A stretch of DNA of 64,000 bases, from NCBI GenBank assembly GCA_005883575.1, contig VBFH01000029.1, positions 1 to 64,000 of the forward strand, in the 5' to 3' direction. Position numbers and translations under genes: made by a program. Below the pieces are notes generated by a model. That model ran no database searches. It worked only from the letters and a program-made list of their open reading frames with translations, and had not been told where the DNA came from. Each line of letters starts with the position of its first letter. Positions within the stretch are counted from its first letter, which is position 1. This DNA comes from Chloroflexota bacterium (GTDB taxonomy: Bacteria > Chloroflexota > Dormibacteria > Dormibacterales > Dormibacteraceae). Positions 4,448 to 18,951 of the stretch are shown one piece after another.

Positions 4448-6031
4448 TTGACCACCAAGCGCTGGATCCTGGCCGCTGCGGTGCTCGGGTCGGGGATCGT
4501 GTTCCTCGACTCGACCGTCGTCAACGTTGCCTTGCCCCGGATCGGTCGCGACCTGCCGCGCTTCTTCCTCGGGGTGCTCGAGGGACAGTCGTACGTCTAC
4601 AACGCCTACCTGCTCACCCTCAGCGCGCTCCTGATCCTCGCTGGCGCGGTGAACGATTTCTACGGCCGCAAGCGGACGTTTCTGCTGGGCCTGCTCGGAT
4701 TTGGCATGACCTCGGTGCTGTGCGGTTTCGCACCGAACATGGAGCTGCTCGTCCTGTTTCGCGTCCTCCAAGGCGCGACCGGCGCGCTGCTCGTTCCGGG
4801 CTCGCTCGCTTTGATCACAGCCAACTTCTCGGGCGAGGATCAGGGACGCGCGTTCGGGACTTGGGCGGGGGCGTCGGGCGCGACGACGATCCTTGGGCCT
4901 CTGATCGGCGGCCTGCTCGTCGACACCGTTTCTTGGCGCGCGGCGTTCTTCATCAACGTTCCGCTCGTCGCGGTTGCGGCCTGGGCGACGTGGAAGCACG
5001 TGCCCGAAAGCCGGGCGGAGGGCAAGGCGCCAACCTTCGACTGGATCGGCGCAGCCATCGTCGCGATTTCGGTCGGCGGTCTCGCATTCGGCACGATCTA
5101 CGGCCAGCAGCGCGCGTGGCGCGATCCTCTCGGCTACGCGATCCTCGCCTTCGGTGTTCTCGCCACCGTGGCGCTCCCGTGGTGGATGATGCGTGCTAAG
5201 CACCCGCTGATCCCGCTCGAGCTGTTTCGCTCCCGAAACTTCACCGTCACCAACATCTCGACCCTGTTGATCTACGGCGCTCTCTATGTCACCTTCTACT
5301 ACGTCGGTTTGTTCCAACAGGGGACACTGGGCTACGCCGCCGCCGCCGCCGGTGCCGCGGGAATTCCGGGCACGCTCTTCCTCATCTTCTTCTCCAGTCG
5401 TTTCGGCAGCCTCGCGGCCAAGTACGGACCGCGCGTATTCATGGCGGTGGGGCCGGCGATCATGGCGCTGGGAGTGCTGCTCTACGCTCGCGTGCCGGCG
5501 AGCAGCACGCCCTGGAAGCTGCAGCCCGACAACCCCAGCACGTATCTCCCGCCGCTTGCGTACTTCACCGACTTCTTGCCCGCGTCGATCATCTTCGGGC
5601 TCGGCATCATGGTCATGGTCGCGCCGCTGACGACAGCCCTGATGACCTCGGTGCCGGTCCGGCACTCAGGATTGGGCTCGGCCATCAACAACGCGATCTC
5701 GCGCGTGGGACCGCAGCTGGCTGGGGCGGTGATCTTCGTCTTTCTGACGGCCAACTTCTACGCCACGCTCGCCTCCCGGCTGACTGGCGTCGACGTCTCT
5801 TCTGAAAGCTTCCGCAATCGGGTCAGCCCCCTGAACACACCTTCAGATCCGAGCCTCGTCTCGGTCGTGCGGGACGCATCGACCAGCTCGTTTCACCTTG
5901 CGGTCCTGGTCGGCGCCGGGTTGCTCCTCGCCGGCGCCATCGTCAACGCGGTGGGGATCCAGAACCGCGCGGACCGACCTCGGGAGGCCGGCGGCGCGGA
6001 GCAGGAAGCGGTCTCGGCCACTTCCGCCTAG
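4448..6031 (+). CDS. MFS transporter, DHA2 (14-helix) drug exporter type
   Basis: The 527-residue protein has about fourteen hydrophobic segments. It carries LDSTVVNVALP in helix 1, a DHA2 signature, and the motif-A stretch NDFYGRKRTF between helices 2 and 3. It is expected to export drugs or metabolites using the proton gradient. Start TTG 4448 follows the VOC gene by 21 bases, so the two are probably co-transcribed. A long periplasmic loop lies near residues 345-385, and a charged tail follows the last helix. Confidence 0.88.
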   Translation: MTTKRWILAAAVLGSGIVFLDSTVVNVALPRIGRDLPRFFLGVLEGQSYVYNAYLLTLSALLILAGAVNDFYGRKRTFLLGLLGFGMTSVLCGFAPNMELLVLFRVLQGATGALLVPGSLALITANFSGEDQGRAFGTWAGASGATTILGPLIGGLLVDTVSWRAAFFINVPLVAVAAWATWKHVPESRAEGKAPTFDWIGAAIVAISVGGLAFGTIYGQQRAWRDPLGYAILAFGVLATVALPWWMMRAKHPLIPLELFRSRNFTVTNISTLLIYGALYVTFYYVGLFQQGTLGYAAAAAGAAGIPGTLFLIFFSSRFGSLAAKYGPRVFMAVGPAIMALGVLLYARVPASSTPWKLQPDNPSTYLPPLAYFTDFLPASIIFGLGIMVMVAPLTTALMTSVPVRHSGLGSAINNAISRVGPQLAGAVIFVFLTANFYATLASRLTGVDVSSESFRNRVSPLNTPSDPSLVSVVRDASTSSFHLAVLVGAGLLLAGAIVNAVGIQNRADRPREAGGAEQEAVSATSA

Positions 6032-6047: not shown

Positions 6048-6758
6048 ATGGCGGCGGCGATCGATCGCGACCGGCTCCGGGAACTGGTCGCTCGAGGCGC
6101 GCAACTGGTCGAGGTGCTTCCCGCCGAGGAGTTCCGCGAGGACCATCTGCGCGGTGCGGCGAGCATCCCGCTCCAGGATCTGGACCGCGACAGCGCGGCG
6201 CGACTCGATCCACATCGCGCGGTGATCGTGTACTGCTGGGACGCCGCTTGAGACATGTCGCCCAGGGCCGCGGCGCGGCTCGAGCAGCTCGACTTCACCG
6301 AGGTCCATGAGTACAGTGCGGGCAAGCTCGACTGGATGGCGGCCGGACTTGCCACCGAGGGAGAGAACGCGGCTCGCCCGCGCGCGGGCACCGTGGCGCG
6401 GACCGACGTCCCGATCTGCGGGGTCGACGATCGGCTCGGCGATGTGCGCGAGCGCACGCAAGCGGCGGGTTGGGACGTGGCCGTCGTCACCAACGCGAGT
6501 CGCGTCGTCGTCGGCATGCTGCGGGCGCAAGAGCTGGCGGGAGACGCCGACGTCCTGGTCGAGCGGGCGATGCGTCCGGGACCAAGCACCTTTCGGCCTT
6601 ACGTGCCGATCAAAGAGATGGCGGACTACATGAGTGAGCACAAGCTGGACAGCTCGCCGATCACGACGTCCGACGGCAGTCTCGCGGGCGTGCTGTTTCG
6701 CGCCGACGCGGTCCGGGAAGCGGAAGGTTGTCCCGACTGCGTGCGGAAGATGATCTAG
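6048..6758 (+). CDS. rhodanese-CBS protein with in-frame TGA (candidate selenoprotein)
   Basis: Residues 1-67 read as a rhodanese domain (EVLPAEEFREDHLRGAASIP, VIVYCWDAA). A TGA at 6249-6251 interrupts it, and the same frame continues DMSPRAAARLEQLDFTEV, YSAGKLDWMAAGL, then two CBS-type repeats to 6758. Read through, the product is 236 residues with the TGA at position 68, five residues after the catalytic-position Cys63. As I recall, homologues carry Cys there (CDLSPRAA-like). A selenocysteine is therefore plausible; a nonsense mutation or base-call error is the alternative. A possible SECIS-like hairpin lies at 6265-6281. The role would be sulfur or redox chemistry gated by the CBS pair. 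Confidence 0.6.
6265..6281 (+). promoter_or_regulatory. possible bacterial SECIS hairpin after TGA 6249
   Basis: The stem GGGCCG pairs with CGGCTC, including one G-U, around the loop CGGCG. The stem begins 13 bases after the TGA, and a G occupies the second loop position about 20 bases from it. This geometry fits bacterial SECIS elements. However, GC-rich sequence forms such hairpins easily, so this is only supportive. Confidence 0.3.
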
Positions 6759-18633: not shown

Positions 18634-18672
18634 GGCGGAATCGGATCTCTTGTCGGGCGGTTGCATCGTGAC

Positions 18673-18951
18673 GTGATCAACCCGAAGCACGACGTGCGGA
18701 TCGAGTTCTGTGTCCCTTGAGACTACCTTGACCGGGCCGTGAGCCTGGCCGGCGACCTCCTCGCCAGGTGGGCCCCGATCATCCGCACCGTCGAGCTGCA
18801 GAGCGCCGCGCACGGGCGCTTCGAGGTGTCGCTCGACGGCGACCTGCTGTTCAGCAAGGCGTCGTCGGGACGTCACGCGAAACCCAGAGAGATAATCGAC
18901 CTCGCCGAAAAGAAATTGGGTCCGGCTCTGCTGTGGCGTAAGAACTCGTGA
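18673..18951 (+). CDS. SelW/Rdx-family protein with CxxU motif encoded by TGA (candidate selenoprotein)
   Basis: A frame opening at GTG 18673 (or GTG 18694) reads VRIEFCVP, then TGA at 18718-18720, then DYLDRAVSLAGDLLARW. It ends LLFSKASSGRHAKP and LGPALLWRKNS at 18951. This is the Rdx (SelW/SelT/SelH) thioredoxin-like fold, whose N-terminal redox motif is CxxC or CxxU. The TGA falls exactly on the second redox position, giving Cys-Val-Pro-Sec. The product is 92 residues, full length for the family. Automatic callers will start it late at GTG 18739 and lose the active site. A hairpin follows the TGA. Its stop is followed closely by a conserved hypothetical gene. Confidence 0.78.
18732..18752 (+). 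promoter_or_regulatory. putative bacterial SECIS element
   Basis: CCGG pairs with CCGG and, past a bulged G, CC pairs with GG, enclosing the loop GTGAGCCT. The hairpin starts 11 bases after the TGA. A G leads the loop, 19 bases from the TGA, as bacterial SelB-binding SECIS elements usually have. The loop contains the spurious GTG start 18739. Confidence 0.45.

Follow-up and report, generated by a model that had tools for sequence, protein, structure and literature searches.

Several selenoproteins with rhodanese-like domains have been described. Table 1 of PMC13188914 (2026) lists 119 selenoprotein families, in which the rhodanese entries carry the motifs UxxS, UxxG, CxU and UxxG (rhodanese-like selenoprotein forms 1–4) and UxxxxU (TsoB), none of those listed being CxxxxU. 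Forms 1–4 are given in that table as rhodanese proteins with a predicted selenocysteine (Sec), as is the protein described here, and one of them has its own NCBIfam model (NF041203, rhodanese (seleno)protein, CxU). TsoB (NF045694, Rhodanese/DsbD fusion-like selenoprotein) carries two Sec, spaced five residues from each other, in a loop of the rhodanese type, and an older list (PMC5029168, 2016) includes a "Sulfurtransferase homologous to a rhodanese-like protein". Among solved structures, BH2092 of Bacillus halodurans (PDB 3nhv) is a rhodanese domain with Cys at both loop positions (YCWGPAC).

In the stretch of DNA analysed here (64,000 nucleotides, referred to as the window) a rhodanese-CBS gene is apparently broken by a stop codon, and sequence comparison strongly supports reading it as an intact gene in which TGA codes for selenocysteine (see the table below for coordinates). 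This TGA, at residue 68, is the only one in frame, and the frame closes with TAG. The original prediction was of one frame running through the TGA in the rhodanese loop and on into a CBS pair; the read-through translation (VIVYCWDAA-TGA-DMSPRAA) agrees, as does a match to rhodanese PF00581 that spans the TGA (residues 8–98, E-value 3.7e-9, 37.4 bits against a gathering score of 22.2). For the second part Pfam detected a single CBS repeat (PF00571, residues 171–224, 33.3 bits against a gathering score of 24); as the predicted fold (mean pLDDT 90.1, 16 aligned sequences) matches solved CBS pairs in Foldseek (2ef7, TMt 0.78), the label "CBS pair" appears reasonable. The best solved match was the rhodanese BH2092, also among the Foldseek hits of the predicted fold (TMt 0.74), and a phmmer alignment placed residue 68 with a Cys of its YCWGPAC loop. 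Cys63 we take to be the canonical rhodanese cysteine, with Sec68 at the far end of the same loop, a position that is usually Arg or Lys in canonical rhodaneses.

Features of the window discussed in the text (forward-strand coordinates)
Feature	Position	Strand	Basis
MFS transporter gene, directly upstream, possibly co-transcribed	4448..6031	+	PF07690, 156 bits
Putative rhodanese-CBS selenoprotein gene, 236 aa (Sec = residue 68)	6048..6758	+	Frame translation, Pfam, homologues, predicted structure
Predicted active-site loop, Cys63 (6234-6236) to Sec68 (6249-6251), motif CxxxxU	6234..6251	+	Y-C-x-x-x-x-U-D in Sec homologues
In-frame TGA, probably read as selenocysteine	6249..6251	+	TGA in 40/40 phylum matches; Cys in aligned Cys homologues
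Predicted bacterial SECIS hairpin; 6265-6270 pairs with 6276-6281, loop 6271-6275 (CGGCG)	6264..6282	+	Codons, folding
SelW-like Rdx gene, second selenoprotein candidate; CVPU, TGA at 18718-18720	18634..18948	+	PF10262, 58.2 bits

When the read-through protein was searched against 400 phylum genomes (E-value of 1e-20 or less), 40 matches were identified in 39 of them, and all 40 have TGA as the codon for residue 68, which rules out a single-base error. YCxxxx-TGA-D is found at the equivalent place in 39 of these; in the fortieth (G158) the sequence is YCHNHQ-TGA-DMSAR, with a frame shift a few codons on. At the level of the class there were 53 matches in 50 of 110 genomes, every one with an in-frame TGA, whose position was verified for the matches common to the phylum search. 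Across 13 related loci the differences per codon position were 0.26/0.20/0.50 upstream of the TGA and 0.23/0.19/0.49 downstream, counted from codon +13, and this prevalence of third-position differences on both sides indicates that the downstream part is translated in the same frame. A pseudogene or a one-base sequencing error, for which nothing speaks other than the stop codon itself, is refuted by the third-position bias and by the recurrence of the TGA in 40/40 phylum matches and on three plasmids of another phylum, leaving that explanation a practically negligible chance. Some genomes have two copies of the Sec gene (G167, with loci L050 and L069; G448; G454). Four phylum matches (L045 in genome G316, L035, L036 and L043) have a second in-frame TGA, be it an error, a second Sec or the mark of a pseudogene; that of L045 lies upstream, in the rhodanese half (LPQ-TGA-EDAE).

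Homologues had been expected to have Cys at residue 68, and this was borne out. A scan of genome contigs with a Cys pattern, by which Cys forms alone were retrievable, found 16 loci in Actinomycetota and Acidobacteriota; in the 15 that were aligned end to end (alignment A4) residue 68 is Cys throughout, as it is in locus L082. A tblastn search of plasmids identified four relatives with at least 80% query coverage: one from Nonomuraea, with Cys, and two from Pseudonocardia and one from Rubrobacter, all three with TGA. In the annotation each Pseudonocardia copy is split into a "rhodanese-like" CDS and a "CBS" CDS, and the third TGA-bearing copy appears as a CBS CDS alone; in the case of the P. 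autotrophica plasmid pPA12743CP, the two annotated CDS are likely one selenoprotein gene. When Sec and Cys were mapped onto a tree of 58 rows, three changes were required, two of which cannot be avoided given well-supported branches, and the Pseudonocardia Sec forms were nested among Actinomycetota Cys forms.

The original prediction had also pointed to a hairpin at 6252-6290 as a possible SECIS, and the core found inside it (6265-6281) has the features expected of one. It starts 13 nt past the TGA, with its apical loop 19 nt past it, and folds by itself at -12.1 kcal/mol (z -2.57). According to the legend of Fig. 2 in PMC13188914, a bSECIS has a loop of 3–9 nt, a stem of 4–16 bp, a spacing of 16–37 nt, a G within the first two loop positions, an MFE of -7.5 or lower and the loop pattern N1-G-[G/U]-N-N2; going by that legend the core fits in loop size, stem length, loop pattern, spacing and energy. 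Counting against it, a longer 48-nt stretch of the window folded no better than its shuffles (z +0.50); folding energy at that length is uninformative in so GC-rich a window. Codons +6, +7, +9 and +10 past the TGA are GCC, GCG, CGG and CTC in 37/37 Sec genes, and among 32 conserved four- or sixfold degenerate columns (one residue in at least 90%) these are the only ones fixed for one codon; the same codons occur in just 6, 3, 7 and 6 of 14 Cys genes, and none of the 14 has all four. At the 13 related loci, codons +5 to +11 differ by 0.12/0.07/0.04 per codon position. The Arg codon at +5 (AGG, CGA, CGG or AGA) invariably ends in a purine (A/G), so that pairing with the opposite U is kept. No compensatory base changes were found in the stem because the stem is almost invariant, hence our use of the codon comparison with the Cys homologues. 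Pairing of N1 with N2 is not universal, since the loop of the Pseudonocardia copies ends in C. A SECIS model (R1) gave 54–69 bits for the three plasmid Sec genes versus 13–49 bits for Cys genes, scores that partly reflect shared protein sequence, the model having been built on protein-coding DNA. R1 was also tried as a means of detecting other selenoproteins in the genome of the window, and for that use it was set aside: this site alone stood above noise (60.4 bits, the next being 17.1). In the Cys form of Streptomyces albicerus (L063 5193-5240) all six SECIS stem pairs are kept and the loop G is not, which may be a remnant of Sec ancestry or a coincidence.

These data bear on whether the locus could instead produce two proteins, a 67-residue rhodanese fragment ending at the TGA and a CBS protein restarted at the ATG at 6255. 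That ATG lies two codons past the TGA in the window gene, and the annotation of the Pseudonocardia plasmid copies as two CDS is in keeping with such a split. However, at 12 of 37 Sec loci there is no ATG in codons +1 to +11, codon +2 there being CTG, CTC, ATT, GTC, ATC or CTT; moreover, the split would halve the rhodanese domain although its second half is conserved in frame, and it would leave both the fixed stem codons and the exchange of UGA and Cys unexplained. We consider two separate products very unlikely.

Sec machinery, which was to be looked for in the genome of the window (127 contigs, 95.5% complete), is present: selA (510.6 bits), an adjoining selB (345.3 bits) and selD (336.9 bits) all score above their cut-offs, and there is a tRNA-Sec that scores 71.4 bits (gathering score 47) and has the anticodon TCA by ARAGORN. 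The selD gene (L011 1501-2412 (-); C86:204596-205507) has an in-frame TGA of its own near the N-terminus (HGAG-TGA-ACKL). As to a second Sec candidate about 12 kb away from the first, this turned out to be the SelW-like Rdx gene of the table above, which is a member of a known selenoprotein family. Across the phylum, selA is found in 38 of the 39 genomes that carry the Sec gene, a weak association given that 322 of 400 genomes have it; the one carrier with no selA match (G095) does have a tRNA-Sec. In addition, selA is present in 9/15 Cys-form genomes, so the Sec form cannot be predicted from the machinery alone, and on these two counts a strict rule that the Sec form occurs only where selA exists was dropped. 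The openness of the frame past the TGA would also be compatible with TGA coding for an ordinary amino acid in this lineage (a changed code) or with unspecific read-through. Against this, 4 of the window's 20 long, GC3-rich ORFs (not all of them necessarily genes) terminate in TGA, which indicates that this codon is not generally reassigned; furthermore, the genome has Sec machinery, homologues carry Cys rather than Trp at the site, and the hairpin constraint is specific to the TGA genes, which makes a changed code or read-through extremely unlikely. The comparative basis for selenocysteine, i.e., the conserved UGA, its exchange with Cys, the constraint on the putative SECIS and the presence of the machinery, is demonstrated at the level of sequence. 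We hold it to be very probable that the gene encodes a selenoprotein: SelB and tRNA-Sec would decode the UGA at 6249-6251 as Sec with the aid of the SECIS hairpin 13 nt on, yielding a single 236-residue protein with an N-terminal rhodanese domain, its loop being C63-W-D-A-A-U68, and a C-terminal CBS module. Selenocysteine had been proposed as likelier here than two independent errors, a judgement that the recurrence of the TGA, the Cys homologues, the sel genes and the hairpin uphold.

With regard to function, we infer that C63 and U68 are a redox or metal-binding pair. They would form a thiol/selenol (selenenylsulfide) pair and would act in sulfur transfer, reduction or soft-metal chemistry, and the CBS module would serve as an adenine-nucleotide-type sensor. 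We surveyed the neighbourhoods of all 40 Sec loci, up to 6 kb per side and often ended by contig ends. Close MerA homologues (54–100% identity to the MerA of L107) were found at four (G153, G241, G105 and G158); the three that were scanned against TIGR02053 (those other than L134) pass its cut-off, and L127 has a more distant MerA relative (35%). The genes in G153, G241 and G105, all of family f41, are in the order arsR-merA-rhodanese (L097 3799-6654, L107 1038-3831 and L134 3679-6642). In G316 there is an arsR near the Sec locus along with a MerE-like gene, whose 41.5 bits fall short of the cut-off of 80, as well as TlpA-like and CcdA-like genes, named by the look of their sequences. On the P. 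autotrophica plasmid (L080 2484-5000) there are, one after another, a merR-like gene, a gene for a MerB-family lyase (MerB; PF03243, 93.9 bits), one for a small protein with a CPH motif and the rhodanese-Sec-CBS gene, followed by an unnamed gene and an MFS transporter; the small CPH-motif protein is also encoded upstream of the Cys form in L053 (52% identity).

These merA, merB and arsR neighbours, present in some lineages, suggest that the substrates include mercury or a comparable soft electrophile. More specifically, Sec68 might be a soft-metal ligand or redox residue that takes Hg(II) or organomercury and hands it on to MerA or MerB, making the protein a working part of some mer operons; we put this forward tentatively and think it rather improbable. 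Beside the window gene itself there are no mer genes; elsewhere the gene has a close MerA nearby at 4/40 phylum loci, a MerE-like gene that scores below cut-off at 1/40 and MerB on one Pseudonocardia plasmid. A mercury role in the window's own genome was rejected: a profile search there found no MerA above cut-off. The chance is about even that the protein works as a sulfurtransferase or in thiol redox chemistry and has no metal role, the mer genes beside it simply being carried along on resistance islands. Rhodaneses typically transfer persulfide, which counts in favour of this, as do the 36/40 Sec loci that lack a close MerA within the region surveyed and the neighbours in the genus of the window (the window, L091, L119 and L120), which are not mer genes: the gene immediately upstream encodes the MFS transporter, and a methyltransferase gene is convergent from downstream. 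On the other hand, lineages that are separate from one another have MerA or MerB next to the gene (families f41 and f59, and Pseudonocardia). Mercury chemistry is accordingly best seen as a hint from a few lineages, a predicted role at most, and these same neighbours make a role of selenocysteine in mercury handling directly testable.

Regarding novelty, no NCBIfam model reaches its cut-off with the rhodanese-CBS protein, and full-text searches for CxxxxU and for selenocysteine with rhodanese and CBS domain returned no paper; in the open-access article text covered, no rhodanese-CBS selenoprotein was found. Membership of the CxU rhodanese (seleno)protein family was rejected on a score of 16.1 bits against the NF041203 cut-off of 115, as was membership of TsoB, the profile of which gave 22 bits over residues 20–114 against a cut-off of 805. 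Databases can split genes of this kind in two, as they have on the two Pseudonocardia plasmids, and in the rhodanese-CBS Sec genes the SECIS constraint can be read codon by codon.

The protein of the window differs from the known systems in several respects. BH2092 is a single rhodanese domain, with neither Sec nor a CBS module. The Cys rhodanese-CBS proteins of Actinomycetota and Acidobacteriota (L053-L067) share the two-part architecture, have 38–49% identity and have a CxxxxC loop in 14 of 15 cases (L065 has Ser at the first position), but in these Cys replaces Sec and the SECIS codons are not retained. TsoB carries a DsbD-like part and a second Sec, whereas the window protein has one predicted Sec, Cys at the first position and a CBS module. 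Forms 1–4 (UxxS, UxxG, CxU and UxxG) differ from CxxxxU by their motifs as listed in PMC13188914, the table of which mentions no CBS module. The CxxxxU rhodanese-CBS form, which is found in many families of one phylum and on Actinomycetota plasmids, is here filed as a new subfamily of rhodanese selenoproteins that lies outside TsoB, the other forms being compared by their listed motifs; with it the prokaryotic selenoproteome gains a well-supported subfamily whose Sec occupies a loop position unlike that of the single-Sec rhodanese forms in that list.
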